From assembly GCA_949130485.1 (NCBI GenBank), contig OX422187.1, forward strand, positions 5,374,659 through 5,438,658: a stretch of 64,000 bases of DNA, in the 5' to 3' direction. The position numbers and the translations under genes are program-made. This stretch comes from Agelas oroides (Eukaryota; Porifera; Demospongiae; Agelasida; Agelasidae). Each line of letters opens with the position of its first letter. Positions within the stretch are counted from its first letter, which is position 1. The notes under the pieces were generated by a model, which was not told where the DNA came from, ran no database searches, and saw only the letters and a list, made by a program, of their open reading frames with translations. This document shows positions 6,044-60,970 of this stretch, one piece after another.

Positions 6044-9000
6044 ACATACGTTCGGCTCTAATAAAGTGTTTGAAAGCAGTTGCTCCCAGTCCACCCACTG
6101 CCCACACAATGTACTGGTCCTGGTTGGTGGGATCCATGGTTCTGTCACAGGTGGTATCAGCTGCAGAGAGTACACATCATGTGACAAATATGGCAATCTT
6201 ATCAGTGCATGCATGAGTCTATTTCCTGCATCAACATTGCTTTATAAGGCAAGTATACAGAGGGAGTATACTCCATCTCTCATCTGGGAAGAGCCATGCT
6301 ACATTGAGTGCTTGTCTTGTATGTTATGACTGAGAAAACATCTCCTTCTATGGTCATATTAGAGTGAAGCAACAGTGCATGATGATGTCAAGAGTGACAT
6401 CATCATGCACACTTGCATGAAGTTAATCAGCAAAACAGCATTAAACATGTAGCCATTTTTTGTAAACGCAACAGACAACAGATGGACAAAAGCAAAAGTC
6501 AAGATCACTAGGCAAAACTAAATTGAAAAATACATCCTGGCAACTTATGTGCATTCTTACTGGTTGTGAAAGGTCTGGTGAAAGCAACACACTGCTGTCC
6601 ATCTCTAATAAATCCTGTCACATCAGTGACATCATTGGTACATGTTCCACTAGAGTCCATCGTATCAGGACATGCTCCCACACCTGCACGACACTGCATG
6701 CGGGTACATGCGAATCAACATGACAATTGTTACATAGACAGCAGATGTCATGACAAATTTCCTGAAATACGGTGGTTCACTGTTTCTACCACATTTTGGG
6801 CTTCTAGCATGACATCTGCTGTCTGGTCATGCTTAGCCTTGAAGCTCAATAGATATATCATTAATCCAGCCTGTGTAAATAGTCAAACACCACTCTTCCA
6901 ACCTGTGTATAAGCACTGAGGTAATAGTCAACAGCTTGAGGCCCATCTGTTTCATCCACCCAGGCTATGGTGGGATCAGCTCCGAACATCAGAGTACTAG
7001 AGGTACTTCCACTCAGACCAAACCCCATGTACTGGTTGGTGCTGGTGGAACAGAGGAGATGAATCAGATTCACATGTATGGCCAATAGGTATAATACTGT
7101 GCATGCAAGGCTTTTTGGGGCAATTTCTCATGAATAAGGTGGTTGTCAAAGTAAGCACCATACCTTTCCAATAAAAATTCCCTGAAATACCTGAAAAAGG
7201 TTGTACTCTAGCTACATAATTATTTGGGGGAGGGCACCTTCCAACGAGAATGCCCTTGTGAAAATAGTAACCACACCGTAATTCTGCTGTACCAAGCTAT
7301 GCTTCAGCAGCACAGATTCCAATGCCAAAGCATGCGGTATGTTGTCCAAAGAGCACCAAAAGCTTGAGCACAGGTTCATATGGCTGCTTTAATTAGAAGG
7401 TGGGTGCCTCTCTAAACAAGGTATCCCTACGAGTCCGAACTACTAATTTTTCTTTTCAAAGTAGTGCTCATGTGGATCATTATGTTTACTAGCTGTACCA
7501 TTCAAATGCATATTGTGTATACACTGTCACATAGAAATTGGGTAGAAATCAAACGTTGCGTATTTCAATCGCATTACTGTATTCGAAGTGCTGTAGTCCA
7601 GAACTTCCGTTAAGGGCGGGGCTCATATGCACTGCATAGATGCATGAATACCTGACAAGTCTATGCAGTGTGTATGAACCCCGCCCTTAATGGGAGTTCT
7701 GCGCTATAGTGCTTCGAACACAGTAACAAGAAATAGGCAATGGAATCATGTTCGATTTCTACCCGGGACGGCCACATGTGTGTATTTATGTCACAAAATG
7801 TGGCAAGAACTATCTTGATCAAGCCAATGATAAAGAGTCAGAAGGCATTTGCAGATCCAAAATACAAGACCACACACTAACCAGATGGAAATCAAAGCAT
7901 GAACTCACCCTGGCTCAAGGGCCTGGCATCCACACAGCCTGAACCTGACCTGTGAGTTGTCTGTGTCCACCCTCCAAGACAGCTGCAGTGTCTCATGAAG
8001 GGGGATGCAGTTGTCAAAGTCTGGAGTGTTTGTCACGGGACCTCCTCCTCCCTGCAGACCAAAAACAAAAATGACATGCAAACCAAAATGTACAAGTAGA
8101 TCTACCTATTCTCATTTCCTTTAAGTTCTAGTTAGAGTCGACATATGATGCCAAACCTCCCGAATAGGAAGGTGGACAAAAACAGATATACTGAACATAC
8201 ACACACGTTCTGTTTTGGGTGGGAGCTTCAAATACATCTGGTACCACGTTTGAAATCTCCTTATATGGATAACAGTATACATAGAAGTTAGTTCGCTGTA
8301 TCTAACCACCACTTAGGATATAGCAAATTGAATATTCAATAGTACGGTTTCTATATACAGTTGTGTGTAAATAATCAGGCCTGTAGGCAGGAAGGGCTTG
8401 AGGGGGTTTGCTCGAACCCCCCTTTTGGCCTCAAAAGATTTATACACCGCCCAGCTATACATTTTAAGTGTTCTAGGGTTTGTAAGTGGTCAACTAGCTT
8501 TTCTGCCATTGAGAATCACCGCTTTCCAAATGAGTTTGGTTGCAGCTATACTCCCCGTCTGTTCATCGGGGAGGACCAGTGGATGAATGTGGACTACACG
8601 CGTAAGAAGTTTATGGAGCTGCAATGAAAGGACGCGTGTAAATACGTGCGTAAATAAATCGTGATTCACCACCAACAATGAAGCTGCAACTGAACAGGCT
8701 GGAGTCAAACCATCTTTCTGAAAATGCATGGAAGCGTATACATGCATGGTGTATTGGTAGTCTATAGGCATCTTGCTGTCGTATAAGCTTGATGCTCTTC
8801 TGACATATTCTCGGCATACTATTTCACCATCTGTCAACCCACCTGCTGTTTTGCCAACTGTAGTACCTTCTTTCGTGGAAATTCAATGTCAGCTGGCTTA
8901 GCAAATGCATGTATGGACAATTAAAAATTGTATGCAATACTCTGCGTGTCATGTAGCTACTATGGCTCTGCTTCTGTCCCACAATGGCCTCAGAAGCAAT

Positions 9001-12000
9001 CTCAGAGCATCTAAATTTCCCAGGGGAGCATGCTCCCAGACCCCGCTAGCATATACACACATCAGACACCTATGTAACCCCCCTTCTGAAAATCCTGGCT
9101 ACGGGCCTGATAATGTTGAAGTTATTGCACATGTACAGATGTGTTGACTGTAAACACTCGCACATGTACGGATGTGTTTACAGTAATAACAACAAAGGAC
9201 CAATCAGGTGGGATATATAATAGTTGACCAAAGGTGGCCAGGGATTTATGGCTGTTAGTAAACAAACCTCATCCTTGGGCTACACCCTTGGACTGTTTGC
9301 TGCCATAAATCATTGGCACTGTGCTATTAAATACCTGCAATTGATTGTCCTATTGTCAGGGCCGTACTTACTTTTTTATCTGGGGGGAACAAACTTATTA
9401 ACTGAAGTAGAGCACATGGCTGTCCTGCAGCTTTTCACTCTACAGGTGTCTGGGGCATGCTCCCCCAGGAAATTTTGGTAGTTTTATGTGTTCTGAGGCA
9501 CATTCCCGTGTATTCTGAGGCATACAGAGAAGCACACAGAGCTTCTTGAGAGGAGGCTTATCAGGTGGCTCATCATTATCATCATTGTTAGCTGAGCTAC
9601 TGGAGGCTGGAAACCATCTCCACCAGCACAACGCATGCATGCCGAGCTGACTGGTCATCTGATAGTGTGCATTATTACCAATTTGAAAGCCACTAGGCAG
9701 CCAACACTTAGCAGCCAACAGTCTCACAAGCCAGACTCAACCAACCCCAGTGCGAATGGTTTTCAGTATCATGCACTAGGCACGCATACTGAAAGCGGTC
9801 TGCGCTGGGGTTGGTGGGTCTGGCCTTGCAAGACTAGTAACAGACGGCAGGCCAGCGGTGAGTCAGTAAGTGAACGCAAGTGAGTCAAGTTCTCTGGGGG
9901 GCAGTTGCCCCCCTTGCTTTCCCCTATGCTATAGGTATGGCCCTGATTGTGCCATGACTATATACTCATGTTTGTATGCACATCAGCCAGTGAAATGTCT
10001 GCCTTTTCCTCTTCAATGACCATTCAGACATCAAACTCTTATTTTCAGAAACCACTTTGTTTTCCTCTTCAAACTGCTTCCTCCACTTCCACTGACCACC
10101 AGCCCTTAGAGAGCTCTAACATCCTCTTCTTACCAATCATTTCAACTTAATAACCACAACACCTCACACATAACAGTTAACAATATCTGTATCTGGTATT
10201 TGCTTTCATATTAAGGCACTCCAAATATTCGTATAAGTACCTGCAAGTGATTGTCCTATCTCACTCATGCTTGTACATGCATCTGCTACGTAGTGAAACC
10301 TCTTTTCCTCTTGATTAATTACAGCAAGGCTTCACCACATGACACTTTACAGGTGAATCACACTTGTTTATTTGGGTGTGTTGGAGGAAGCTGTGTCACA
10401 CATTGCTGCAATCCAAACACTTATGATAAACATATTTATTGTACGTCTAACACCCGAATCATGCAATGAAATCAAAGGTTTGTATGATAAAATCATTATC
10501 ACCATAGTGCCAAGCTATACTGGGAAAAATATCACTTGTTTATTGCCATTGGCACTGGTAACAATACAGACGGCAACAAACTCGTGATATTTTCTGGTAT
10601 AGCTTTGTACCACGGTGATACTTATACAATGGTAACCCCTTTCCCTCTTAATTACAGCTAGACTTCACCACATGACACTTTACAGGTGAATCACACTTGT
10701 TTATTTGGATGTGTTGGGGGAAACTGTGTCACACATTGCTGCAACCCAAACACTTACTGTGGTAAGAGCAGAACCTAGATGGTATAATTATTTGACCTCA
10801 ATGATGTGATTAGTTTTGATCCTTTCAGACTGATGTGTACAACAGTTATCCAGATAATGGCGAGGTTCACCTCAAACATCATTTTATATAACCTTTTATC
10901 TTGGCAACATATAAGAATGTTGCTCATATGCAGGACTGGCTTCTGCTTTGTGAGTTACCAGCCATCAGCACTAGAATCCTCCACTCCCTATGCTCCCAAT
11001 CGTTCAAGTCACAAAGTTGCCATTCTCCAAACTTTTATTGCCAACCTATCCTATCTTCCCAATCAGCTAAATTCATTGCCATGCATGTGTACATGACTGT
11101 GATATACCTACAACATTTAACATTCATGGGTTGCGATTAACATTCCTCGTGATAAATTTACCTGACTAATATCTATGTATTTCTAAGCATGACCGACACA
11201 TGTGTACAATTGTATGCACTTCATGAGAATAGATCCCACATTCAGAGTCTCATACTAGTGCACTCAGCAGCTAGCGAAAAATTGTACATTAATTAACAGC
11301 AGGAAATGGGAAGTGGTACTTACAATGACTGTGCACGGATCTGCTCCATCACTGACCTAAAAGAAAGACATTTTCAGCAGTAACTATGAGCTACAATAAT
11401 GCCCCTTTAAATTTTAGTGACTCCTTCAGGAGTGTATATATGATCTGCCCAAAGGACTAGGAAAGGAGTGTTGAACTTCACATTCTTGTATGTTTACCAA
11501 CATGTCTAACAACAATATTATGATATTGTGTGAAAACTTGATGTGTGATAAAGAATGGTTCGTTCACTTGCTTCCATTCATTGTATTAGTTGTGGCTCAA
11601 CTCTCCTCTGCTGCCCTTTAGGTACATGACACAACAGCTTATTAATTAACCCACTCATAAGGATACTGCTCCATGCTATCATTTGCAGTCAGCATCTACA
11701 TTTCAATGGTGATGTCACGTCTTAGTTTATTCAAGAACAGCTGGATTATTCACTCGCAAATGTGTTAGACTTCATGTTTTAGTTAGATCATATGAGGTGA
11801 ATTATTCACTCACAAATGTGTTAGACTTCATGTCTTAGTTAGATCATATGAGGTGAATTATTCACTCACAAATGTGTTAGACTTCATGTTTTAGTTAGAT
11901 CATATGAGGTGAATTATTCACTCTCAAATGTGTTAGACTTCATGTTTTAGTTAGATCATATGAGGTGAATTATTCACTCACAAATGTGTTAGACTTCATG

Positions 12001-15000
12001 TTTTAGTTAGATCATATGAGGTGAATTATTCACTCACAAATGTGTTAGACTTCATGTCTTAGTTAGATCATATGAGGTGAATTATTCACTCACAAATGTG
12101 TTAGACTTCATGTCTTAGTTAGATCATATGAGGTGAATTATTCACTCACAAATGTGTTAGACTTCATGTCTTAGTTAGATCATATGAGGTGAATTATTCA
12201 CTCACAAATGTGTTAGACTTCATGTTTTAGTTAGATCATATGAGGTGAATTATTCACTCACAAATGTGTTAGACTTCATTAGTTAGATCATATGAGGTGA
12301 ATTATTCACTCACAAATGTGTTAGACTTCATGTCTTAGTTAGATCATATGAGGTGAATTATTCACTCACAAATGTGTTCCTTGGGAACTCAACAAATCCA
12401 AAGACGACATCAAAGGGTTGACACCAAACAGTGAGGGTGCCAATGTCACAGACATCCATCCCTTCTGGTAGGGTCACTGTAAAGTCCTCATTAGTATAAC
12501 GACTTAGGCGAAACCGGCCTTGACTACTGCAAAACAAACATAATGCATGCAAAGTGTCATGGCAATGCTTTACACATTGTCATCACTATAATATAATATT
12601 AATGTACACATATTAAGAAAGAATTCCCCACTATGTGGCATAGATTGCAAGTTGGGATGTTTTGCACATACAAAGTTAATTTTCCACTGATTATGCTGAA
12701 GTTATTGCTTTGAGATAGAAGAAGATGGTAATCTTCTAGGTTTGGGAAGACCTCCAGCAGGTTTCATGTAACACATAGTCATTTGGTTCCAATACTCTAA
12801 CAAGTCCAAGGTGGTATTCATTGAATTTCTTCCTTGTGAGGTCTATGTACAATAGAATGTGTACTGACTTGCTCTGGATGGCATATTCAGGTTTTATGTT
12901 ACAGCATAATTACCTTATGCTGTTCCTAAGAATACATACATGTACATGACTGCAGGAATAGTAGTGAATGAATTAATTTCTTATCACTTACTCTCCAGCT
13001 GAAGAAGGGAGACGGATTATAGTACCTGGACTACCACGTGTTGCAGACACTCCAGGGGCATAGGAGTATAGGAACACCGCTGCAAAATGAGAATGTATTA
13101 TAAGGACCACATATTCACTACATTATTTTTGCATACAAGTATATAAGCTATTGGCATTCTCTCTTACCTACTCCTAAGCCATCATAGTTGAAGTCATTAA
13201 TAACAATGGTCCTTGCGTTGGGGAGAGTCACTGTTCCTGATATCCCATGAACATTGCTGTTTACGAACTGAAGACCACCTAGCAGAGAAGGATGATAAGG
13301 GTTGTAATCCATATATCACTGTATGTACTGTATACTTGCAGTAGTTTAGTACACAGAAGCCAGAAAACTAACTGGTTGGAATGGAGAGTACATACATAGC
13401 ATAACAAACCATTCTGTCATATGCAAAACATAGCACAATTGTGTGCAAGGATACTATTATGTCTAGGATGCGTTATGTGAAAGGAGTTAATGGTGACCAT
13501 ACATGCTTGTACATAACATAACACAATGCATATAACACAGTCTCAAGTTCAATGGTAGTGGACAACATGTTGCTGTCATTTGCCACAGAAGCAAAGGCTT
13601 TAATTGCCGAGCGCCTTAGCGCGAGGCTACTAATCTTGCAGTGCGTGTTCTCGGTTGGCGGGGTGTGGCCTTGACTTCCGTCCCGCTTTAGGAATGCAAG
13701 TAAAGGTGTGGCTTGTGCGCAAACATCCGTCCCGTTTAGGAATGCAATTAAAAGATCCTGTTTACAAAAAGTTGTCGTTCCCAGCGCTGTAGCGGCGCTA
13801 GTGGTCTCATTGTCGCGACGTCATAAAGTCAAAAAACCGTGATGAGAGCGAGGAAGAGCGAGCTAAGAGACTGACGCGAAAACGGAAGCGAAGACAGAGA
13901 GCCAAAATGTAGCCACTACCCCGTGAAGTCCGCGGCAAGATCGATGAGTACGAGAGAGCAGCGGCTAGCGAAGCAAAGAATGGCAGTATCGAGACACAAC
14001 CATATCCTAGCATTCGGTGAGGTGTTCGAACCTCGCTCACTTCCTTCCAACTCTTTCAACGTGCGCTTTGCCATCTTTCTCACACTTCGTTGCACATGGC
14101 CGTCGTATGTGCCACGCCTACGAACAGTTATGCACACGTGTCGCCTGTCAGTTCAAAGGTCATTGAGATGCGCGCGCGAGGCATACACTGCGAATACGTA
14201 CACCTAGTATAAAGTTTAATCATGGATGGCAAAGTAGTAGTACCTATATAAAACAATGTTTGCTATACAATAAATTTACTGGAGTTCTGAAAATGGTATA
14301 TAAGGTTACAAGCTACACCCTATAGTATAAATGAGTGTTATTTTTTAAGGGCTGTCTATTAGATTACAATTACTATACCAGGCATACAGTTAGTATACTG
14401 GGCATACACATAGATAGTCGATTAGTGGGACACTACTATCTATGGCATACAGTTATTTGACTAGGTATGCATATTATTGACGTCTTGGAAAGAAAAAAAG
14501 CTGTGTATAGATTCAAACTGGAATTGTGAAAATGTGTAAATGTTTTTAGCTGACTGTGTCAATGAATGGATAACTCCGGCAACTCCCATGAATGGAAGCT
14601 GTTCTGCACTGTCACATACAAACAGTCATTTCACTGAAATTTGTTTGGTATGGCAACTATTCATCTATTAAGGATTTTCAAAACACTGTACAATAGCAGT
14701 TTACTTCAATAAACAATAAACAACAGGCCCCTTTCTCTGCTGGTAAACTGCATGTGACCTTTTACCCCGAGTCAAGAGTATACAAAGAGCTACAGGAGAG
14801 TTTGTCTTGAGTGAGATATTTTTGGCACTAGGTAATGAACCAATATACAGTAATTATTAGATAATTCAAACCATATGCTATACTATCTATGCTCAAACTC
14901 TTTAGACCCTTCATCACATACTCGCCGCGAGTTAGACATTTGCCGAGAAAGGTCTGCATCTTTTGAATACAGGGGCACAGCCACGCTTTTCATACGCTTC

Positions 15001-15095
15001 CCCCCACAGTTAAGCTGTACGATACCTGCAGGTTGCCCGGTAGCCTCATGTATCTCCAGAGCTGCGAACAAGCAAATAACTAAGGGTAACAACAT
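2495..15095 (-). CDS. Skeletor-like DM13-DOMON-cupredoxin protein, copy A
   Basis: Coding exons in order on the minus strand: 15095-15026, 13278-13168, 13079-12992, 12526-12370, 11356-11324, 8051-7909, 7041-6903, 6693-6561, 6160-6050, 5258-5082, 3807-3614, 3551-3503, 3267-3092, 2638-2495. All join in frame (1725 nt, 574 aa). Residues 1-23 form a signal peptide (MLLPLVICLFAALE). About 24-142 is a DM13 domain (VHGISGTV, NFNYDGLG, LPEGMDVCDIGTLTVWC). About 160-330 is a DOMON domain (LQLSWRVD, GFGLSGS, DPTIAWVD). About 388-545 is the Skeletor-type cupredoxin module (GIAWYINGTLIPEL, YHPFYITDS, YYQCATHLNLGW). The His of YHPF with the Cys and His of CATH resemble a type-1 copper site, with Trp at the usual axial Met position. 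The last exon ends in a short stalk and a hydrophobic tail (VVASLLTVLLIAMVTLFL), as in GPI-anchored proteins. Copper or haem binding is inferred. No break was seen. Confidence 0.9.
3463..3502 (-). repeat. Perfect 20-bp tandem duplication of a 5' splice-site region
   Basis: Two perfect 20-bp copies (3463-3482 and 3483-3502; unit AGAAGTACTCTACAGTTTAC on the plus strand) abut the end of exon 12 of copy A. Each copy carries GTAAAC on the minus strand, so the exon has its used donor plus an identical one 20 nt downstream. Copy B lacks the duplication. Confidence 0.85.
5989..6042. repeat. (CA)n microsatellite beside exon 9 donor, copy A
   Basis: About 27 CA units lie a few bases beyond the 5' splice site of exon 9. 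In the transcript the donor GTATGTG runs straight into (GU)n. Copy B has a shorter array at the same place. Confidence 0.95.
6375..6410. repeat. Perfect 16-bp hairpin in intron, copy A
   Basis: Arm 6375-6390 (GTGCATGATGATGTCA), loop 6391-6394 and arm 6395-6410 are perfectly complementary. The hairpin lies between exons 8 and 9 and is absent from copy B. It could be a miniature element or an RNA hairpin. Confidence 0.8.
7575..7725. mobile_element. TA-flanked MITE, copy A intron 6
   Basis: Inverted arms of about 65 bp run from TACTGTATTCGAAG at the left to CTTCGAACACAGTA at the right, bounded by TA on both sides. Both arms contain the core AAGGGCGGGG or its complement. TA duplication and length suggest a Tc1/mariner-type MITE. 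It is absent from copy B. Confidence 0.75.
8376..9109. mobile_element. Non-autonomous DNA element with 5-bp target duplication
   Basis: The left end is CAGGCCTGTAGGCAGGA and the right end TCCTGGCTACGGGCCTG, flanked by ATAAT on each side (8371-8375 and 9110-9114). About 734 bp with no transposase visible. It lies in copy A intron 5 and has no counterpart in copy B, so it inserted after the gene duplication or was lost from B. Confidence 0.75.
9357..9945. mobile_element. Second CAGGGCC-ended DNA element with 5-bp target duplication
   Basis: The ends CAGGGCCGTAC and GTATGGCCCTG are inverted and flanked by ATTGT (9352-9356 and 9946-9950). About 589 bp. It carries a nested MULE-like MITE at about 9719-9837. 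Similar ends and target length to the element at 8376 suggest the same superfamily. Confidence 0.7.
9719..9837. mobile_element. MULE-like MITE nested in the CAGGGCC element
   Basis: Ends AGTCTCACAAGCCAGAC and GTCTGGCCTTGCAAGACTA are inverted, with further pairing of CAACCAACCCCAG inside. It belongs to the same family as 18401-18595, 38724-38832 and 42863-43632. The target duplication here is not clear. Confidence 0.6.
9975..10140 (-). mobile_element. LINE fragment
   Basis: The minus strand encodes ELSKGWWSVEVEEAV, matching the segment just after the endonuclease domain of the LINE relic at 35.7-37.0 kb (ELSKGWWSLEVEDAI). Only this short, stop-interrupted piece is recognisable. Confidence 0.6.
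10324..10762 (+). repeat. Duplicated ~100-bp segment with Cys-rich exon-like reading frame
   Basis: Two near-identical copies at about 10324-10425 and 10660-10760. Each has an acceptor-like TTTACAG followed by an open stretch reading CLFGCVGG, then CVTHCCNPNTY. The second ends at GTAAGAG, a donor consensus. The strand is opposite to the host gene. This could be a captured, duplicated exon of a Cys-rich protein; no parent gene is seen. Confidence 0.35.
11744..12369. repeat. 56-bp minisatellite repeating the exon 4 donor, copy A
   Basis: Eleven intronic units of about 56 bp (one shorter, near 12270) run directly into exon 4 of copy A. On the minus strand each unit contains AACACATTTGTGAGTGAA or a close variant, that is, the last bases of exon 4 plus its GTGAGT splice site. 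The true exon end (12370) is the twelfth instance. A matching array lies in copy B. Confidence 0.9.
13598..14215. other. Copy A-specific GC-rich insertion
   Basis: Aligning intron 1 of the two paralogues shows about 600 bp present only in copy A, bounded by TTAAT at both sides. It is richer in CpG than its surroundings and has two short direct repeats of CCGTCCCG followed by TTTAGGAATGCAA (about 13678 and 13731). Overlapping short frames exist on both strands but none is recognisable. Origin unknown. Confidence 0.45.
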
Positions 15096-29000: not shown

Positions 29001-32000
29001 CATATTCCATGATTATAGGTACCGTACTTAATCGGTACCACAAACTTGCACAATTTTTACCAGTACATATGCTCCCGAGTTTACAGTAGCATCAAACAGG
29101 TTAAATAACAGTTGTTGCTACAGTATTTACTCGCCTCTATCACACACCCACACACACACACACACACACCACATACGTTCTGCTCTAATAAAGTGTTTGA
29201 AAGCAGTTACTCCCAGTCCACCCACTGCCCACACAATGTAATGGTCCTGGTTGGTGGGATCCATGGTTCTGTCACAGGTGGTATCAGCTGCAGAGAGTAC
29301 ACATCATGTGACAAATATGGCAATCTTATCAGTGCATGCATGAGTCTGCAGAGAATTACAAATATGGTAAGTTATGTTTAGTCTATTTCCTGCATCAATA
29401 TTGCTTAATAAGGCAGTAATGTACTGAGGGAGTATACTCCATCTCTCATTTGGGAAGAAACTAGCAAAACAGCATCAAACATGTAGCCATTCTTAGCAAA
29501 CACAACAGACAACAGATGGACAAAAGTAAAAGCCAAAGATTGCCTAAACAAAATTAAGCAGTAACTTCTGTCTCTCTTACTGGTTGAGAAAGGTCTGGTG
29601 AAAGCAACACACTGCTGTCCATCTCTAACAAATCCTGTCACATCACTGACATCATTGGTACACGTTCCACTAGAATCCATCGTATCAGGACATGCTCCCA
29701 TACCTGCACGACACTGCATGCGGGTATATGCGAATCAACATGATAATTGTTACATAGACAGCAGATGTCACGACACTGTATAAGTGAAGCAACATGATAT
29801 TCTGTGTTGCATAGATACCAGATGTTACAAAATTCCATAAATAGCTATGGTAGAAAACCTGATCCTCTGGTTCTACCAAATTTTAGGAGATTTGGATTAT
29901 CTAGCATGCATGGTATCTGCTGTCTGGTTATGGTTAAAATTTCTCTAAAACATCACTAATCCAACCTCTGTATATAGTCAAACATCACTAATCCAACCTG
30001 TGTATAAGCACTGAGGTAATAGTCAACAGCCTGAGGCCCATCTGTTTCATCCACCCAGGCTATGGTGGGGTCAGCTCCGAACATCAGAGTACTAGAGGTA
30101 CTTCCACTCAGACCAAACCCCATGTACTGGTTGGTGCTAGTGGAAGAGAGGAGATGAATCAGTCTTACATGTATGGCCAATACATGTTTGTATCTTGCAT
30201 GCCAGGTTTGTTTGGATTCACAGCTGCAGGTGCCAAAATAGCGCTAACCCAATTTCTAATAAACGTCACTCCACAGTTGAGGATGAACTCACCCTGGCTC
30301 AAGTGCCTGGCATCCACACAGCCTGAACCTGACCTGTGAGTTGTCTGTGTCCACCCTCCAAGACAGCTGCAGGGTCTCATGAAGGGGGATGCAGTTGTCA
30401 AAGTCTGGTGGAGCAGTTGTCACAGAACCACCTCCTCCCTATAGACCAAAACAAGTGGTAACCCAAAATGTGTGAGTTCCTTTTAACTTCCAGACATAAT
30501 TATGATGCACTTCCTGAATAGGAAGGAGGACAACAAACAGAAACATGGAGCCAAATTCTGGTTTGGGTTGGGTTGAAGTACATTTGACACCAGCTTTGAA
30601 ATCTCCTTATACAGGTGTATGGGTAACAGTATATAAACTCAAGCTCATTTGCTGTAACTTAGCACCACTTGTAACTGATGGCTTCCTGGCTCGTGATGTA
30701 TACTACAGTTACAGGCTCATATTACTTGCTCATAATACTTGCATAGTGACAACTATCCTTCAGGCAACTAAGAAAATAGCAAATGTGGAATGTTGCAGCG
30801 GTCCCAACTGTCCAAATCACAAAGGACCCCACAATGCCATCCTCCAGACTTCATTGCCAAACAATGCCATCTTCCCAATCAGCTGCCATGTGTACATGAC
30901 TGTGATGCACCTATGACATTTAACATTTATGAGCTGCAAATTGACATTTCTTGTGACAAATTGAGATTCCAATACATATGTACATACATTGTATGTACAT
31001 ATGTATGCATATCACAAAACTATATCCCTCATTAGACGCTCATGCCAATTGACATGGCAACTAAATGAAAAATTGTACATTAATTAACACCTTACAGGTA
31101 CAGTTACTGTAGGAAGTCACTTATCTGAACTTTAGTTATTCGAACATGTCGGTTATCCGATCGCGCTTAGCAAAGCTGCACCCACTATTTCCAACTACTT
31201 TCGCCGACAGGAAGCTAGCTTTAGCTGTTCAAATGCCTGATATCAAGGGTTTCAGTGCTTACTCTACCCATTGTATGGCAGCTGAAGACTGACAGGATAA
31301 CTTCTAAGGACAAGATACGCTTCTCAAGAAAGGTAAAAGCAACTGTCAAAGTCAGCCACAGGGTATTGCTAGCCTACCGCATATCTGCCCAGTGGAAATG
31401 GAAACCGAGCAACAGCTTATGGTTGTGCGCATTCTAGTGCTTGGTACATACGCAGTGTCCAGAAGTTCATTTTCAGACCCGTAAAGTCAGGAGATGTATC
31501 GCACACCGGTGACAGAAGCACATCACCTGCTCACTGCTAGCTAGTGCTGCAGCTCACTCCGCGTACAGTTTCCGTCACGTGGGCTAGCATTATAATGGCG
31601 CCTTCTGTCATACTTCAGTTATCCGAATGTTTCATTTATCCTCTCCGGTCCCAACGTGTTCGGATAAGTGACTTCTACTGTATTAAATGGGTGTATACTT
31701 ACAATGACTGTGCATGGATCTGCTCCATCATTGACCTAAAAGAAGATTGAAGTATTCTCAGTAGCAACCATAGGTAATGCCCCTTTAAAGTTCAGTGCCC
31801 CTTTTAGAAGTTTATGAGCCAATATGATGACAATGTGTGAAAACTTGATGTGTGGTAAGGATGTTCCATCCACTTGCTTCAACACTGTGCTAGTACAAAG
31901 TATGGCCCCAATCCTCTTTGCTGCCCTTAAGGTACATATGACACAACAGCATATCAACCCACATATAAATCACTAGTCTACATTTGCTAGTGAGAGGGTA

Positions 32001-35000
32001 TGAATTATTCACTCACAAATGTGTTAGACTTCATGTCTTAGTTAGATCATATGAGGTGAATTATTCACTCACAAATGTGTTAGACTTCATGTCTTAGTTA
32101 GATCATATGAGGTGAATTATTCACTCACAAATGTGTTAGACTTCATGTCTTAGTTAGATCATATGAGGTGAATTATTCACTCACAAATGTGTTAGACTTC
32201 ATGTCTTAGTTAGATCATATGAGCTGAATTATTCACTCACAAATGTGTTAGACTTCATTAGTTAGATCATATGAGGTGAATTATTCACTCACAAATGTGT
32301 TAGACTTCATTAGTTAGATCATATGAGGTGAATTATTCACTCACAAATGTGTTAGACTTCATGTTTTAGTTAGATCATATGAGGTGAATTATTCACTCAC
32401 AAATGTGTTAGACTTCATGTCTTAGTTAGATCATATGAGGTGAATTATTCACTCACAAATGTGTTAGACTTCATGTTTTAGTTAGATCATATGAGGTGAA
32501 TTATTCACTCACAAATGTGTTAGACTTCATGTCTTAGTTAGATCATATGAGGTGAATTATTCACTCACAAATGTGTTAGACTTCATGTCTTAGTTAGATC
32601 ATATGAGGTGAATTATTCACTCACAAATGTGTTAGACTTCATTAGTTAGATCATATGAGGTGAATTATTCACTCACAAATGTGTTCCTTGGGAACTCAAC
32701 AAGTCCAAAGACAATATCAAAGGGTTGACACCAAACAGTGAGGGTGCCAATGTCACAGACATCCATCCCTTCTGGTAGGGTCACTGTAAAGTCCTCATTA
32801 GTATAACGACTTAGGCGAAACCGGCCTTGACTACTGCAAAACAAGCATAATGCATGCAAAGTGTCATGGCAATGCTTTAAAATGGGACATTTAATTTGCC
32901 TGTAAACATTTCTTCCACTGATCATGCTGAGGAGAAGTATTCCTAAAAAGAGCTAGGTTTGGGAAGACCTCAAGCATAGGAATTTCATGTGATGCAACAT
33001 AGTCATTTGGTTTCAAAACTCTAACAAGCCCGTGATAGAACATTTGGTCATTGTGTGGTAGTTTTGACGTTCAAAAAATATTTACCAGTGCAAAATAGAA
33101 TGTGTGCTTGGTCTGGGTGGCAGATTCAGGTGTTATGTACGACATAATTATACTATTCAAATGCGGTACATGCGTACATTAGGAGGAGCAACCTGCATGC
33201 ATATTTCCTATTGTTTTGTCACTCACTCTCCAGCCGAAGAAGGGAGACGGATTACAGTACCAGGACTACCACGTCTTGCAGACACTCCAGGGGCGTAGGA
33301 GTATAGGAACACCGCTGCAAACGACAATGCATCAAACCAAGTCAATAATAGTCTTGCTACAGTCTTTCTAGTGTTGTGCATATAAGCTATTGGCATTCTC
33401 TCTTACCTACTCCTAAGCCATCATAGTTGAAGTCATTAATAACAATGGTCCTTGCGTTGGGGAGAGTCACTGTTCCTGAAATCCCATGAACATTGCTGTT
33501 TACGAACTGAAGACCACCTAGCAGAGAAGGATGATAAGGGTCGTAATCCATATATCACTATATGTGCACAAGTACATTATATACTTGCAGTATGTGTTAG
33601 TTTAGTACACAGAAGCCTGAAAACTAATTGGTTGGAATGGAGAGTACATACATAACAATCACATTATAACAAACCATTCTGTCATACAGTGGAACCTCTG
33701 TTAAAGGACACCCTGAAATAAGGACACCTTTGTTAATCAGGACACTTGTGAGTCCCAACTTCATATAAATATTTTCCCCCTGAAATAAGGACAAATATTT
33801 TGGTCCATAGTAGGGAGGTTCCAGTGTATACAAAACAAGGATATGATTGTGTGTCTAGGTGTCACCATACATGTACATAATATAAAGCACAATGAATATT
33901 ACACAGTCTCATGTTCAATGGTAGTGGACAACATCTTGCTGCCATTTGCCACAGAAACAATCGTGAATGGGCAAAAGTATTAGTACCTATATAAAACAAT
34001 GTTTGCTAACTTTACCAGAATTCCGAAGATGGTATATAAAGTTACAAGCTGCACCCTGTAAAGCTTCTCAATTTAATCGACTCTGCCTTCTTATAAGTAG
34101 AAAAGGAATTAACATCTTCATGGACATCATGAGTGTTATTTTGAAGGGCTGTCTACCATTTGATTACAGTTACTATACTGGGCATACACATAGATAGTAC
34201 AGTATATAGTAGCACACTACTATATCTATGGCATACAGTTATTATTGACCTCTTGGTACAAGAAAACTGTGTAGAGATTCAATTGGAAATGTGCAAATGA
34301 AAGCTTCTTTTAGCTGACTGAGTCAGTGAATGGATAACTCCGGTAACACCCATGAATGGAAGCTGTAATGCACTGTCACATACCAATAGTCATTTCACAT
34401 AATGTGGCAACTATTCATCCAGAAGGTATTCTACAATCACTGGACTGGACTGGATTGTTGAACTGGACCGATGGACTGGACTAATAATCTTTTTATGCTC
34501 TCTAATGAGAACTCACCTGTAGGGTTGTATTTAGATGCATAGCCACTTTCCTTCACAGACTCTAGCAAGAATATTTAATAGCTAGATGACATGAAGCATG
34601 CACACTCAATGATATAAAGCCTATTCGGCAAGCCTTGAGGCATCTACCATTGGCAATACATGCAGATGTCATTTGGAATGAGTCTTACTGGTTATAGCTA
34701 CTTGATTATACTTGCAGATTCTTACAGATTGGGCGCTGTGGTATACTCAAAGCTTAACAAGTATTTTATCCAACTGCAAGTGTCATATGTAGCTGACTAG
34801 AGCCTTCACTAAAGACTTGTATTCAGACTACACCATAACATGGAAGGAGCTAGAAAGTTACAACTTATTCCCAGGCACTCCTAAAAACTGGGAGCTGGGT
34901 GTGAGGCTGAAACTACCTCACATCAGGCTGTACACTAAGCACAAAGTAAAGTAAGGCCTCACCACTGTTGTAGCATTACAGTTATTCACTTCAAGTCTAC

Positions 35001-46400: not shown

Positions 46401-49400
46401 TGATTGATCATGTCATGCACGTATCAATAATGTGGGTGATAACAGTGTACATTGTGCAGATTACCATGGGTGCAAGCTGGAGGTTATGGGTCTGAATCAA
46501 GCCATTTAAGCCAGTGGTTTGTTGCCTATAGTCAGACAAAAGTGCGCCAGCACTATGCATCTGGTTTCTTCATCATTTTTATGGCATCTAATCAGGAACA
46601 AGCATTTGCAATGTAGTTATAGGCTAAGTATGCATGCTTGGTATTGGCCAAAATGTGTCCTGTACAGTGGGGAACGTATGCATAACAAATCAAGGCCTGC
46701 CATTTTTCACAGAGATGTGGTTCATTGATTGTTCATGAATATATGGAGTAAAGATAACAGTTGACTTCAAGCAGTGGCATAGCCAAGGATACCCAGGTAC
46801 AGCATGGGCCCAGAGTTAGTAACGTCTACACAAAAGCATCTAAGGAGACTAGGGACATGTTTCCCATGTACATATTACATATTTAAGGAGTGCGACCAAG
46901 CACCACCCTAGTTCACTTATCTGTACAGAACTGTTAGTATTAGTCGTTGATGGTCAGCTCCACTAGTCTGTGGTCAGCATCATGCATGCTACACATACTT
47001 TTCCTATCTTATTCACTTGCCATGTGTATTGCCATGCATGAGCTACTATGCCTCCCAGTGCTTGTCATCACAAAAATTAGAAAAGTAGAGCCACTGCCAT
47101 GGAGGCCAGACTACAGTGGTATCCGAGTGCAGAGCCACTGTCGGAGGCCAGGCTACAGTGGTATCAGAACGTAGAGCCACTGTCGGAGGCCAGGCTACAG
47201 TGGTATCAGAACGTAGAGCCACTGTCGGAGGCCAGGCTATAGTGGTATCAGAACGTAGAGCCACTGTCGGAGGCCAGGCTACAGTGGTATCAGAACGTAG
47301 AGCCACTGTCGGAGGCCAGGCTACAGTGGTATCCGAATGCAGAGCCACTGTCGGAGGCCAGGCTACAGTGGTATCAGAACGTAGAGCCACTGTCGGAGGC
47401 CAGGCTACAGTGGTATCAGAACGTAGAGCCACTGTCGGAGGCCAGGCTAAGTGGTATCAGAACGTAGAGCCACTGCCATGGAGGCCAGGCTACAGTGGTA
47501 TCAGAACGTAGAGCCACTGTCGGAGGCCAGGCTAAGTGGTATCAGAACATAGAGCCACTGCCATGGAGGCCAGGCTACAGTGGTATCAGAACGTAGAGCC
47601 ACTGCCATGGAGGCCAGGCTACAGTGGTATCAGAACGTAGAGCCACTGCCATGGAGGCCAGGCTACAGTGGTATCAGAACGTAGAGCCACTGCCATGGAG
47701 GCCAGGCTACAGTGGTATCAGAACGTAGAGCCACTGTCGGAGGCCAGGCTACAGTGGTATCAGAACGTAGAGCCACTGTCGGAGGCCAGGCTACCTTATT
47801 CATTTTCACCCTGTGCATTCATTTCAAGTGTGTGTTTGATGGAGTGTACGGTTTACGAAAGATTTGTAGCTCACAGAATATTTGTCGATGGTCCATTTGT
47901 TTGCTATAGGCTCACATGGTAATCCCCGATAGCTCTTTCCTACATTGTGTGGCAGTGGAGTCTGAAGGAAAGGTGCAGTATGCAACATTTGCCTTTGGTA
48001 GGTATGGCTAAGAAACTGTAATAGAGTGGTCTGTAGCAGTACTGTACGTGCTCCTTGCTTGCAGACACAGGTGATAACATGAAGGCTGTACAATCCATGG
48101 ACAATAGCAGCAAGTTACAGTACTGCCAGCTAAGTATGGTAAGGATTCAGAACTGTTAAGTATGGTATAACCATTGTGTTTGTGGATACATTACCTACAA
48201 AACTGCTCCTGCCAATTTCTGTATGATTTCCCTTGCCAAAATGCGTCATGGATACCTTTTACAGGTCTGTGGTATTAGCTATACTCTTGGTGTGCATATA
48301 GTGTTAATGTTGCTAACATGCAGTATTCTCTAATAGTGCACGGGTAGTGGTAAAATAGTGTACTGTAAATAATTATAGGTCTACATAATATGTATATGTA
48401 GTAGTTGTTATACGGTGTGTATTATAAATATAATCTACATTGTGTACTGTAAACACTGCTCATCTGTTGGCAAGACAGTGGTTTAATTTGAAATGTATTC
48501 ATATCGATGTTTTAATAGAATGCATCATATTACAGTAGTCTGCGAGCAATACAGGGATATTGCACTTTTATCCTGTATTGCTTGCGAGAGATGTCCAGGA
48601 TTGCCATCAAAGGCTTAGTAGTGCCTTTGATCTCCTTTTGTTCTTTCTTTGTTCTCTAATCCCAACCCTAACCCTAACCCTAACCCTAACCCCCCCTCCT
48701 AACAATGCATTGTTGGCAAACCTGGACATGTATGTATATTGCTCACAGACTAGCATAATAAGATATATTTCATCTCCCTGTATATAGTGGAGACATTGTC
48801 CAATGTGTACGTATAATAACATACTCTAAATCTATACATTTCTCTGCTTCCAATGCACACCACATTTTTGTGCCTTCAATTAATACTCATTCAATCGTGT
48901 GGTTTCTACTGTTGTACACACTATACCATCACTCTATAGGACACTGCAGTTAAGAAACTGGGCTACACTACTACCAGACTGTGGCCTCCTGAGGTACACA
49001 ACTACATGTAGTACCAAGTCTTATTGTGATGTAGTTTAGGAAAGACTGCATGCCTTGTGAAGAGGGCACATCAACCGAGAAGGGAAGAAGGAAGACCAGA
49101 CGTTATTTCTCGCTATGTACAAGGCCTTGCCAGCTGACTTTATGCATTGTCCTTTCCATGATTTTGGATTATCGTAAGAATAACATAGCTTGCCAAAAAC
49201 AATGCAGGGTGGTCAAAGGTGGCATACACTGGTGTTTTTCACTAGAGGTATTATACTATATACTACCTAAGTTGCAACCACATTGTATTTAATGCTGCAC
49301 AGATATGTAGTTTAAAGTCTCAGTGCATGCCTTTCCATGCACTTTTTGTCATGTCCATACAGTGCACCACATGTAGCCTGTGGACAGCCCAGCTCTTCCC

Positions 49401-52120: not shown

Positions 52121-55100
52121 ATGGACATGAATCATTTGGCATTGCTTCTTACTCTGGTTGGGTGTTTCTCCCAATTTGTGGATGGAAAAGTGTACTATGT
52201 TAGGCCTAGTGTTGAGGGTTCTGAAAGTGCCCCCCAGTGTCCCCCTGGACCTTGCCACACACTTCAGTACTATGAATCTAACTCTGAATGGTCACTGAAT
52301 TTGGAATCCAACACCACAATATACTTCATGTCTGGTGTCCACATATTAGACCATGTGCTCTCATTCAAGAGAGTGGACAATCTGTCACTAGTTGGCAGTA
52401 TTAAACACCCACAGAGTGCTACCCTTCGAGAACAAGAACCATCCACTAAAATTGTGTGTAGAGGAAAAAATGGATTCCTGTTTGAAAACATAACATCTTT
52501 GTTGATTGCCAATCTCTCCATTGGAAACTGTGGACGGGAAGTTAAAGACCTTCCTCACTATGCCTTTGCAGTGGATATTGTGTCTGTTACCAATCTCAGT
52601 ATCTCTGGTATTGTGGTAAGGAACAGCACTGGGTATGGACTAAGAGCTTACAATGTTATTGGAACATCAGTGATTTCTAATTCCCTATTCATTTACAATG
52701 GCTGGAATGAGAACTACACTGGTGCACATGCTAGAATCTCATTTGATATGGATTTGGACAATTGTGTCAAATATGCTGCAGACTCACTGTCATTTGTTAT
52801 TGAATCTTCACAATTTCTCCATGGGTACGATCATTCCTTTATAGAGAATACTAGCCTTGTATCAGGTGGCCTTCAGATTACTCAGTCTTCCTCATGCTTA
52901 GACTTCAACATTTATATCAGAAACGTGGTTCTGTCCAGCAATAAACCAACTGGAAATCTTGTAATAGTGGCAGAGGAACCTTGGAATACAACTTCCTCAA
53001 CACACATTACTATTGAGAATACGCTTATTGAAAAGGGACTCTCCCAAACTGGTGGAGGTGGAAAAATTAAGTTTTACTCTGATTCACGGGTACCATGCTC
53101 AAATTCCACTAGAAAGACAAACACGCTACGCGTCATAAATTCCTTCTTTGTTGAGAATACTGCAGTACAAGGTGGTGGTCTACAGGTTTTTTTCAGAAAG
53201 TATGTCAAAGTTATCAGGTGGAGATTAATGGTGTCACATTTAGCAGGAATAGTGCAAGAGGACAAATTGAACACAATCGTACAGGCAAGTATGTGAATTC
53301 ACATGTATATGGTGGAAATTTGGCGTTGACCTTAATATCTCAAAGAGAGTATTCCACTGGTCAAATCTACATTAATATTGAAAACTGTACAGTTGAACAT
53401 GGAACGGCTCCATTTGCAGGAGGGATAAGTATTTATATTTCCCACGGAGATGGGTTATATGGAAAGTGTGAAAACACACAATCAATAAAGCAACCTTCCA
53501 TTGTGAATATCTCGAACACAAAGGTTATTGGAAATAAGGCAATATTAACAACTGGTGGACTAGGAATTACTGTTTACGATATTTGCAAGCACTACAAACT
53601 GAATATGAATGGTGTTTTGTTCAGAGAAAATAGTGGTAGTATTAATGGTGGAAATCTTCGAATATTGGTTCATAACCACACAATTCTGCCGTCCATTGTA
53701 ATTGATAACTGTATTTTTGAATCTGGGATTTCCCGTATTGGTGCTGGAATGTACATGTACCTAGAGAGACCTTTGCTTAGCACTGATAGGGTTCAGAATG
53801 CTTGGTATTCAGTGTTAAATAGTCACTTCATCGGTAACAGAGATGGTGGTGGAGCCAAAATTGAACTTTGGGAAACATCTCAACTGAGCAGGTGCTACCA
53901 GGATCAACATGCTACATATTCAATAAAATTTGAAAATTGCACATTCACAAACAATTTAGGGTGGCCATCCTCAGCACTTAGCATTGAGAACAGAAATTCA
54001 CGTTTCATGCCATTGTATGACAATGTTTTGCTAAGAAACATATCCATTAGTAACAACTACATTCCTCAAAAATATGAAAATGTCTATAGTTTGTCTGGCC
54101 AATGGGATCCCATTACCTTTGTGGTCATTCGATTTTCCACTGTATACCTTTACAGTGTGGATGCTACAATATCAAACTGTACATTTACTAGTAACAACAG
54201 CACTGGTTTACTTGCTATTGAGGCAAACCTATACTTTGAAGACAGTGTTGTTTTCAGCAACAATACTGGTAGAAGAGGAGGAGGACTGTCTCTGATCAAC
54301 TCATACATTATTGTAAAACCAAATACAAGACTTCAGTTTGTAAACAACCATGCAAAACACGTAGGAGGTGCCATCTATGTTAAACAAGACTCCCTGACTT
54401 GTTTTGTGCAACCAAGGGTGCATTTCAGCACCAACAGCGTAACAAAGATTTGGGTCGCAAACAATAGTGCAGTTGAAGCTGGCAGCGATTTGTATGGTGG
54501 ATACATAAAGCGAGCATGTTTTAATGTTACCTTCAAACTTGTTAATGTAGATAAAAGGGATTTGTCTGCAGTCTCTTCAGACCCTCTTGGAACTTGTTTC
54601 TGTGAACTTGCAAAGCCGAATTGCACCAAGCGTATTCACTATGTTGAAGTGTACCCTGGAGACACCTTTAATATTTCAGTTGTGCTTGTTGGGCTTGCGT
54701 TTGGTACTGTCCCCGGAGTTGTGCATGCTACCATCAAACAACATACTGCACTAAACCACTCCTCACTGGATATACTGCAACAGTCACAATCTGTTACAGG
54801 CAACTGCACAACTGTATTTTATACTCTGTCCTCTGGAAACAAAACTGAAGAAATAGATCTTAATCCAACAGTCCCCGAGGCACTACTATTGAAATCCCCA
54901 TTTTTCATTAAAGTTAAGCTTCTTCCATGTCCACTGGGATTCTCTTTGTCAGGCAGTCCTCCTAAATGTGACTGTGCATCACCACTGAATGACAGCACAG
55001 TTTTCCAGTGTAACATTCACAACCAAACAATTCACTACCCTGCAGGAATGTGGCTAGGTTATAATGGTCTCCACAATGTGAATACATCAACAACTATTGT

Positions 55101-56532
55101 TGCTAATGGCACTATCAAAAGTACTGGCATCATTCAACATAATCACTGTCCATTTGACTACTGCAAGCGTGGTTTCACAGACATTAACTTGGAAGAGCAG
55201 GATGAGCAGTGTGCCTTCAACCATTCAGGTGTTCTCTGTGGTGGATGTCGTCAGGGATTCAGTCTAGCTCTAGGAAGTTCACAATGTTTAAAATGTTCTA
55301 ACTCACACCTGTTACTAATGTTTGCTTTCCTAGCAGCTGGTGTTATGTTAGTGGTATTCCTCACTGTATGCAGCTTAACTGTTGCTGAAGGGACGCTGGG
55401 AGCACTTGTCTTTTATGCCAACATCATCCAAGTAAATTCACCAATCTTTTTTCAAGGTGGAAAAACTTACATATTATCTACATTCATCGCATGGCTTAAC
55501 CTTGATCTAGGAATCCAGACCTGTTTTAGTGATGGTCTGGACATGTATACCAAGGCCTGGTTGCAGTTTGTCTTTCCCATCTACATTTGGGTACTGGTGG
55601 TTGCAATGATAATTTCCAGTCATTATTCCACAACTGCTGCAAAGTTGGTCAGTCGGAATGCTCCAAAGGTACTAGCAACTCTTTTTCTACTCTCCTATGC
55701 CAAGCTCCTTCGCATCACAATCACCATTCTCTCATTCACTACCATGGAGTATCCTGATCATACAAAGCGGTTGCTGTGGCTTCCTGATGGAAATGTGGGT
55801 TACCTTCAAGGAAAGCACATTCCACTCTTCATGACAGCAATCTTTGTTCTAACAGCATCTGTTTTGTTTGCCACTGCAGTTCTACTGATGCAATGTCTTC
55901 AAAGATGGTCATGGCATTGGCTACTTAGCTGGTTTTGGAGGATTAAGCCAATCTTAGATGCCTATGGAGGACCTTACAAGGACAAATATCGCTTCTGGAC
56001 TGGAATGTTCCTTCTTCTTCGCATATTTCTCTTCCTAGGTTATGCAGTAAATACACTGGGTGATGAAAATCTCAATCTTCTCATCACCACTGTAGTAATT
56101 GCATGTATTCTTTGTCTAAAGTGTACCTTTGAGGGAATTTATCGAAATTGGATTCTGGATATTCTGGAAAACATATTCCTTGTGAACTTAATAACTGTTT
56201 CCGCTGTTGCATCATATATTCAGGATGGAGGGAAATTGTCAGCTGTCACCAACACATCCATTGGAATTGCATTTGTGATATTTATCGTGATTCTCTTTTA
56301 CCACATTTATAAATACATTGTAAAACCTCAATGCCAGAAGTGCGCACAAAGGTGTTTGAGTGCCAGACGTAACTCTAAATCACATCGAGAATTATCGCAA
56401 ATTGCTGTTGAAGATGAAAGTACAGATTCAAACTCATCTGATACTCAGCCTAATCCTAGATCAATGCAGCCGCTTAGATTGACATTTGATGAAAACGATG
56501 AGCCCATTCTTGTCATAGATGAAGAGAACTAA
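52121..56532 (+). CDS. Beta-helix (PMP-like repeat) multi-pass membrane receptor
   Basis: An apparently intronless gene of about 1,470 aa. I chose ATG 52121 because it starts a clean signal peptide (MDMNHLALLLTLVGCF). The first part (52121 to about 53188) and the second (to stop 56532) lie in different frames, meeting at a run of seven T (53187-53193). The ectodomain has many Asn-rich FxxN and GGxL/GGAI repeats (FFVENTAVQGGGL, FVNNHAKHVGGAIYV), as in right-handed beta-helix or chlamydial PMP repeats, with many N-glycosylation sites. A Cys-rich knot (CGGCRQGFSLALGSSQCLKC) precedes about ten hydrophobic segments, starting at LLLMFAFLAAGVMLVVFL, and a short acidic tail ends in ILVIDEEN. Similar beta-helix plus multi-TM proteins are expanded in sponges and some protists. 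Ligand and function are unknown. The frame change could be a homopolymer error, a real mutation or programmed slippage. Confidence 0.8.
53187..53194 (+). other. Frame junction at slippery-type heptamer
   Basis: In the upstream frame the codons read GTT TTT TTC, that is T TTT TTC, a canonical X XXY YYZ slippery site. A -1 slip gives FFQKVCQ and leads exactly into the downstream frame (EINGVTF). A missing T in the assembly would give the same result. Confidence 0.6.
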
Positions 56533-59422: not shown

Positions 59423-60970
59423 ATGGATCTTGCCAACCTTTTGAGCGACTCCGTACTGGAATGGTGCGACAACAGCGACGAACCCGACGAACCCGACTAC
59501 CAAAGCGATATCGATCGTATTCTCCTTGCCGCCATTGAATCATTTGAGCGACATACTGCGTTAGACTGTGGGAAGACTGCACGGTAAAAACAAATTTGCT
59601 GTTTTAGCAAATTATTTCGTTACTACAATTGCGTGACTATCCTTCCTACGCTAATTCAAAGAATGTAGTGCTTGTAAAACATTTTGTGGGAGGCTATTAA
59701 AGTTTACTCAAGCATCAGCTCCCACTGCATGAATCTTTTCCAGCACTGCATTCATAAAATTTTATAGTAAGGATAGTCACGCAACTGTAGTAACCAAATA
59801 CTTAGCTAAAATAACAACTTTGTTTTTGCAGTGTGGTGCCAACATAGACGGAGCAATTTCGGAGACTCCATCCCCCAGCTAACGGAACTACAGCCAACAG
59901 AGTTGCAGCAATGGCTTACCTACTTCATTCTGGAGTTGCGCAAAAAAGATGGTTCAGAGTTCACCCCAGATACTCTACACCACATTTGCTGTGGCATAAT
60001 GCGCCATTTGCGATGGAAAGGTCAACCTGCTGTCGACTTCTTTAAAGATCCTGAATTTGCAGACTTCAGTCACTCACTAGACGCGGAGATGAAGCGTCTG
60101 CAAGCTGCCGGAAAAGGTACTAAGGAGAAGCAAGCTGAGCCACTTACCATACAAGAAGAGGACATCTTGTGGCAGAAGGGATTGCTTGGAGACCACACTC
60201 CTCAGGTTCTGCTGGACACCATCATTTCTATGAATGGTCTGAATTTTGCTCTTCACAAGGAACACCGCCAACTCAGATTTAGTCCACCACAGATTGAGCT
60301 AGTCGAAAAACCAGGAGAGATAGCGTACCTGGTGTACAGAGAGGACATTTCAAAAAATCGTCCTGGTGGGTTGAAGGGGAGAAAAATGAAGCCAAAAGTC
60401 GTATACCACCACGAAAACCTGGACGACCCCAACAGATGCTTTGTGAGGCTGTACAAGTTGTACATGAGCCTTTGTCCAGCGGATCCTCCATCAGATTCCT
60501 TCTACTTGATGCCTCTACAAAATCCATCTGCTACCTGCTGGTATTCCAGCCGGCCACTCGGATACCATAAACTTGACAACACAGTTGCTCGCTTCTGCAA
60601 GTCAGCTGGAATACCAGGATACAAAACCAATCATTCTCTCCGGGTCACTGCTGCAACAAGACTGTATGACTCAGGGATTGACGAGCAGTTGGTCATGGAG
60701 ACTACTGGACACTGCAGCACGGAAGGTGTTTGTACTTACAAAAGGACATCTAAAACCCAGCGCCAACAAGTGTCGGACATACTTAGTGCAAAGAGGATCT
60801 GCGTTAAACACCCCATCCCTCCCGAACAACCTCAATCCTCTGAAATTGTTCCAGTTCAGGGGCACAGTTCTACTTTTGAACTCTCAAACACCGCATCTAC
60901 AACCATCCCGGCATCATTTGCTTTCCATTCATGCTCATCTGTCACCATCAGTATTAACTCCCGTACCTAG
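59423..60970 (+). CDS. Crypton-type tyrosine recombinase (DUF3504-like)
   Basis: Exon 1 59423-59583 encodes an acidic N-terminus (MDLANLLSDSVLEWC). Exon 2 59832-60970 holds an N-terminal SAM-like core-binding region (LTYFILELRKKDG, LHHICCGIMRHLR) and the catalytic domain. Numbering the exon 2 frame from 59831, I see HSLR (H268, R271), GH (H294) and the presumed nucleophile in CTYKR (Y303). The first catalytic Arg would fall in FALHKEHRQLR; the usual Arg after FAL reads His here, so activity is doubtful unless a neighbouring Arg substitutes. Cryptons are DNA transposons that move by tyrosine recombinase, and animals have domesticated several (ZMYM, QRICH1, KCTD1). The obvious donor joins the exons off by one nucleotide, so the model is either mildly broken or spliced differently. 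Confidence 0.8.
59584..59831. mobile_element. MITE-like inverted repeat that forms the recombinase intron
   Basis: The 248-nt gap between the two recombinase exons is bounded by GT and AG. About 60 nt at its left end (GTAAAAACAAATTTGCTG and on to CACTATCC-like sequence) are inverted at its right end (AAGGATAGTCACGCAACTG to TTTGTTTTTGCAG). The whole intron is therefore one inverted-repeat element whose tips supply both splice sites. Confidence 0.75.

Follow-up and report, generated by a model that had tools for sequence, protein, structure and literature searches.

A minisatellite multiplies the 5′ splice site behind a DM13 exon in two neighbouring paralogs of the sponge Agelas oroides

One of the closest described parallels comes from human minisatellites, in a paper that we take to be De Grassi and Ciccarelli 2009. 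Such repeats occur in recently duplicated human genes, some of them at exon-intron boundaries, and are said to alter splicing (PMC2812944). Work on intron gain by tandem duplication cites fission yeast genes in which a 24-bp exonic segment carrying AGGT is present in several tandem copies (PMC4974935), and in the beetle Knickkopf gene TcKnk3 the intron that follows exon 5 contains an additional exon and a site of polyadenylation, giving a shorter 5′ transcript (PMC4140639). Here we describe a minisatellite that repeats the 5′ splice site of intron 4 behind a DM13-encoding exon of an Agelas oroides gene, A, and of its paralog B. Both lie in a stretch of 64,000 nucleotides (the window, C5:5374659-5438658, where C5 is contig OX422187.1) of an assembly of 259 Mb and 141 contigs; positions without a contig prefix are those of the window.

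Tandem Repeats Finder (TRF) placed array A at 11745-12378 (11.4 copies, 97% matches, score 1191) and gave array B, 20.3 kb away, a score of 1265. Consistent with the preliminary description, which had proposed a 56-bp tandem unit across the boundary of exon 4 and its intron, the first copy in A takes in the final 9 bases of exon 4 (12378-12370) together with the donor at 12370/12369. The proposed length holds for most units (ACATTTGTGAGTGAATAATTCACC...), but one full unit is shorter, so that array A is made up of ten 56-bp units, one 52-bp unit, and a degenerate last copy. With the exon-end copy counted, this amounts to 12 tandem copies; B has 13, and both counts come from one assembly. The motif GTGAGT had been ascribed to each of the 11 intronic repeats of A, but it is present in 9 of them, the other two carrying GAGAGT and GCGAGT. 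Both arrays are thus minisatellites of head-to-tail units within the range of about 10-100 bp, and in both a single exon is followed by several GT donors that pair well with U1: GTGAGT is present in 10/12 copies of A (GAGAGT and GCGAGT in 1/12 each) and in 13/13 of B. Three main unit types (G, A, and a 4-base deletion) occur in both arrays in differing order, and across the 23 full units there are only two substitutions confined to a single copy, plus one site at which three types recur, which is too little change to judge selection on the repeat donors.

We searched the 259-Mb assembly with a 28-base core of the unit, allowing up to 3 mismatches. There were 23 matches, 11 in A and 12 in B, and none elsewhere in the assembly, a reversed control pattern giving 0, which speaks against chance; the 23 leave out the last copy of each array, the most diverged one, and the repeat counts may be lower bounds. 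A dispersed satellite or mobile element is unsupported, since the core is confined to A and B in this search, and an assembly copy artefact is unlikely, as the two arrays differ in unit number, unit-type order, and flanks. In 173,658 bases around the gene cluster, 3/8 minisatellites with units of at least 27 bp and at least 5 copies have many GTRAGT motifs, namely A, B, and C5:5342413-5342827; a neighbouring 30-bp row was merged with one of them, and this small, cluster-only sample gives no genome-wide rate. The third minisatellite is located outside the window, where DM13 exon 4 of the copy L021 lies about 2.9 kb upstream of it, and has 30/50-bp units with GTRAGT 9 times on the minus and 4 times on the plus strand.

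Gene A is encoded on the minus strand. Its exons 2-4 specify a DM13 domain (Pfam PF10517, E 1.5e-16, 61.4 bits against a cut-off of 25, with a query one residue too long where exons 3 and 4 meet), as expected from the earlier placement of the array beyond a DM13 exon, and the profile is reached to its last position, 105/105, at the end of exon 4. Exons 1-5 form a single open frame of 459 bases, with a phase 0 joint between exons 4 and 5 at which ...PRNTF is followed by VSDGADPCTVI. A DOMON domain (PF03351, E 3.5e-15, from a query of fragments joined by eye) follows the DM13 domain further downstream on the same strand; exons 6 onward were likewise linked by eye, and a single gene with both domains is a provisional model. 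An exon-by-exon search saw one DM13 domain per copy, which is a lower bound, the Knickkopf family trait being two N-terminal ones.

The codons after exon 4 are GTG AGT GAA TAA, so NTF is followed by Val-Ser-Glu-stop (VSE-stop) in 9/9 close copies of the gene, and any later donor, as well as intron retention, leads to this tail directly after DM13. Because every later donor includes the VSE-stop, the protein would be the same whichever of them is used. Use of later donors had been predicted to add either blocks of roughly 19 residues or stops; a stop would follow from every one, and in-frame extension blocks are ruled out by the GTG AGT GAA TAA directly after the first donor. The first donor alone joins DM13 to exon 5 in frame, and both homology and frame make it very likely the productive one.

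Of 25 candidates scored in a family search, 14 were retained as DM13 matches; 13 of these belong to a single cluster on C5, and the remaining one is on C23. Nine are close copies, namely A, B, and seven that we call P, whose exon 4 matches that of A at 96.9-97.5%, and all nine have the exon 4 end, the donor, and exon 5 in common. In each of the four distant copies, L018-L021, a single donor stands at the matching place by eye (in L018, an exon similar to exon 5 follows by eye), and a GTRAGT donor after TTT was seen there, again by eye, in 13/13 exon-4 matches; L022 represents an earlier part of DM13 and is without bearing on the donor question. This conservation upholds the view that the repeat multiplies a true 5′ splice site. 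Each of the 7 P copies has the exon end and first donor as in A but no more than two units, which have diverged and lie about 60 bp from each other, the second carrying GTGAGT in 6/7 and TTGAGT in P5296, where the loss suggests that the second donor is dispensable. The degenerate unit that ends array A leads on into intron sequence also present in the P copies, there beyond an insertion of about 400 bases, and is therefore taken as the old second unit, which puts the donors in the order of one, two, and a dozen. From this comparison, a segment spanning the donor of intron 4 and the final 9 bases of the exon appears to have been tandemly duplicated once in the ancestor of the nine DM13 copies, and then expanded to 12 and 13 copies in A and B and homogenised between them.

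Other features of the cluster concern the P copies themselves. Their exon 4s are spaced 3.3-12.5 kb apart in C5:5287000-5335000, and the roughly 400-base insertion in their intron 4 (e.g., C5:5289538-5288220) sits within the old second unit, has CTAAGAYATGA at both ends, and is perhaps a mobile element. DOMON-type exons were found beside only 1/7 P copies, so several of them may be DM13-only or broken genes. P5296 has a second, inverted exon 2 (C5:5297877-5297988), and a further copy has exon 2 at C5:5325901 and exon 5 at C5:5324855, its exon 3 and exon 4 not being found. An exon resembling exon 1 occurs at 6 further places in the cluster, one of them upstream of B.

The arrays of A and B do not differ more from each other than within themselves, the mean difference per unit being 0.82 for the 55 pairs inside A, 0.79 for the 66 inside B, and 0.81 for the 132 that pair A with B. 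The surrounding introns are less alike, at 67/77 aligned bases (87%) for intron 2, 289/337 (86%) for intron 3, and 192/236 (81%) for intron 4 past the array, and the exons, aligned with one to three intron bases included, match at 111/112, 84/89, 156/159, and 34/36 bases for exons 2, 3, 4, and 5. Since the array units are as alike between the genes as within them, though the introns around them differ by 13-19%, the arrays have probably been exchanged. The simplest account is that exon 4 and the array were recently exchanged between A and B; that all bases of the unit should be under strong constraint is a less likely cause of the likeness.

We favour, with a probability of about 0.62, the explanation that the array is a tolerated minisatellite, whose repeats act as decoy donors, partly hidden within a donor hairpin, and whose first donor is the productive one. 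The first donor would remain in productive use, since no other donor connects DM13 in frame with exon 5, and the repeats would lie in the intron, normally removed by splicing; as such, the later donors are most likely decoys and at most a drain on the productive message. Decoy use or intron retention would yield VSE-stop messages, most of which should be lost to nonsense-mediated decay given the downstream exons. It is in favour of this explanation that two copies of array A have lost their GT while the exon frame stays open. Decoy use may be further damped by a 10-pair hairpin at each repeat donor and by pairing of the inner copies with their neighbours. The donor is within such a predicted hairpin, UGUGAGUGAA UAA UUCA(C)CUCAUA, with one array unit folding at -10.2 kcal/mol (z -1.67; 14/200 shuffles as good) and two at -25.9 (z -2.64; 1/200). 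The first P unit folds like an array unit (-11.2), and the second P unit and the last unit of A reach -2.1 and -3.4. In a 150/100 folding window, the predicted open probability is 0.0061 and 0.0068 for the first donors of A and B, 0.0014-0.0064 for the other copies, and 0.031 for the last copy of A. The 62 other GTRAGT sites in the 64,000 nucleotides of the window have a median of 0.016 and a lower quartile of 0.0053, and among the 21 intact donors that follow the first one in A and B, 20 fall below that quartile.

Several points weigh against this explanation. The hairpin has a modest z (-1.7) and is predicted to hold the first donor as well, and it provides weak proof of donor sequestration; three far-arm changes between the array unit and the first P unit, compared by eye, keep the pairing, but all are transitions, which easily do so. 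Among the GT donors, the first ranks as the most open in just 3/5 settings for A and 3/5 for B, a ranking that omits the last copy of A, the most open in all five, and it has no advantage in either gene at 400/300. In 6/7 P copies, the second-unit donor site is even predicted to be more open than the first. The first donor can gain nothing over the others from U1 pairing, since the intact donors have an identical core and are set apart by their context alone: the pairing is -6.3 kcal/mol for every intact array donor, compared with -9.4 for the exon 2 donor (-7.2 for exon 3 and -6.8 for exon 5), and the intact second donor of the P copies pairs slightly better, at -6.6. Where equally strong donors compete, the intron-proximal one reportedly can win, and this would favour the last repeats; twin donors have been studied in vitro by Eperon, Hodson, and others. 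The 13/13 intact donors in B could also be explained by selection.

A regulatory role of the array, as in the earlier suggestion that it could tune the protein or its mRNA level, is possible. The array might be a dosage device, with the donor row catching U1 and diverting a set share of transcripts to degraded VSE-stop messages, so that a longer array would lower the output of A and B relative to their two-unit relatives. The VSE-stop is identical whichever later donor is used, and splice choice would therefore set dose rather than sequence; this fits the two genes of the cluster, which have ten and thirteen intact GT donors of equal core and arrays that do not differ between them. We nevertheless regard it as unlikely, since 2/12 donors have decayed in A, 1/7 relatives lacks the second donor, and the predicted hairpins imply low use of the repeats. 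More doubtful still is a combination of burial and dosage, in which each added unit would bring one more decoy and one more strand hiding its neighbours. On the other hand, the stop directly after a complete DM13 profile, behind a signal-peptide-like exon, would suit an isoform switch, in which a late donor or retention gives a soluble DM13-only protein ending in NTFVSE beside the long DM13-DOMON form. The shorter 5′ transcript of TcKnk3 offers a precedent, but it appears on knock-down of the full-length form, and only another transcript was found essential (PMC4140639). The VSE-stop is also present in the seven P paralogs, which is in keeping with a switch but at the same time means that the array is not needed for one. 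Decay is expected given the downstream exons, and AATAAA on the gene strand was found once in intron 4 of A (11731-11726, in the last degenerate unit) and not in intron 4 of B. Altogether, a switch of this kind seems quite improbable.

It is also conceivable that splicing is irrelevant and that the near-palindromic core (GTGAATAATTCAC, judged by eye) acts as a recombination patch, promoting slippage, exchange, and A/B conversion. The arrays are indeed indistinguishable between the loci while the introns differ, but exons 2 and 4 are also 98-99% alike, so the likeness of A and B is not limited to the array. As a separate account we find this very unlikely, and it would be compatible with the tolerated minisatellite rather than exclusive of it. 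Finally, the units might be mini-introns spliced one from another, each leaving a 12-nt in-frame exon: in every full unit, CTAAC is followed by an AG (GAAG) that lies 12 nt upstream of the next donor, and those 12 nt, TCT AAC ACA TTT, read SNTF in frame. We give this next to no credence, as no pyrimidine tract is visible by eye, the introns would be about 44 nt long, and no SNTF-type exon was noticed in the relatives.

The coordinates of the features are given in Table 1. The window also contains a 42-bp minisatellite of 16.7 copies (47085-47794), inside which the open frames shift, so that it is probably not coding as a whole. Two long stop-to-stop frames, both assessed by eye, are one of 1125 codons (53155-56532) with a membrane-like C-terminal part and one of 386 codons (59810-60970) resembling a tyrosine-recombinase type protein.

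Table 1. Positions in the window of the exons, domains, and repeats of paralogs A and B
Feature	Position	Strand	Basis
Exon 1 of A, coding part, signal-peptide-like MLLPLVICLFAALEIHEATGQPA	15026..15095	-	From sequence; signal peptide judged by eye
Exon 2 of A, first part of DM13	13168..13278	-	Splice sites, open frame; kept in 9 close copies
Exon 3 of A, DM13	12992..13079	-	Kept in 9 close copies; Pfam DM13 over joined exons
Exon 4 of A, last part of DM13, end ...AACACATTT	12370..12526	-	DM13 profile, translation; kept in 9 close copies
First donor of intron 4, GTGAGT, phase 0, probably productive	12364..12369	-	In-frame join to exon 5
Minisatellite A, 12 copies of 56/52-bp unit, 10 with GTGAGT	11745..12378	-	TRF; unit dissection
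Dead donor GAGAGT, ninth copy of array A	11920..11925	-	Unit dissection
Last degenerate unit of A, GCGAGT at 11757-11752	11715..11763 (lower end approximate)	-	Alignment with paralog introns
Exon 5 of A (VSDGADPCTVI), phase 0	11324..11356	-	Kept in 9 close copies
DOMON first part, downstream match (extent, not exon ends)	7908..8021	-	Pfam PF03351, fragments joined by eye
DOMON second part, downstream match (extent, not exon ends)	6903..7049	-	Pfam PF03351, fragments joined by eye
Exon 4 of paralog B	32677..32833	-	156/159 aligned bases as in A, with two acceptor bases counted
Minisatellite B, 13 copies, all GTGAGT	32001..32685	-	TRF; unit dissection
Exon 5 of paralog B	31703..31735	-	Sequence comparison with A

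The locus provides a natural test of 5′ splice-site competition, with identical cores behind one exon and in one intron at 2, 12, and 13 copies in neighbouring genes, and the path of array growth from one donor to two to twelve is visible. If the array is silent, it measures how far an intron tolerates extra strong-looking donors. If instead each unit both added a decoy and hid its neighbours, array length would set the VSE-stop share and serve as an evolving dosage dial passed between A and B by gene conversion.

Our search of the literature on repeated, tandem, or competing donors found no equivalent, most subscription papers being outside its coverage and absence thus unproven. What is new against the literature searched is the growth of 10-13 intact donors from an existing one, with two-unit relatives still alongside. 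The kind is known, since boundary minisatellites in human paralogs have been described: like them, A and B are recent paralogs with a repeat at the boundary and copy numbers differing between paralogs (PMC2812944). Half of the human repeats are in coding exons, those at boundaries can form novel introns, and they average 4 units of 30 bp (PMC2812944), whereas the unit of A and B carries an existing donor and is repeated 12-13 times at 56 bp, nearly all of it intronic. As in GYNGYN tandem donors, neighbouring donors would compete for U1, here as read from sequence alone; those are two donors 3 nt apart with subtle protein changes, compared with up to 13 donors 52-56 nt apart and a stop in A and B (PMC1779574). 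Splice signals are multiplied as in intron gain by tandem duplication, but A and B call for no additional intron and have an old one with a multiplied donor, and no strong acceptor is visible by eye in the unit (PMC4974935). The combination of DM13 and DOMON recalls Knickkopf and Skeletor, and the short TcKnk3 transcript likewise ends in an intron upstream of the DOMON part. Unlike those proteins, one DM13 was seen per copy here and an array is unmentioned in the excerpts of that paper; the comparison is one of likeness (PMC4140639).

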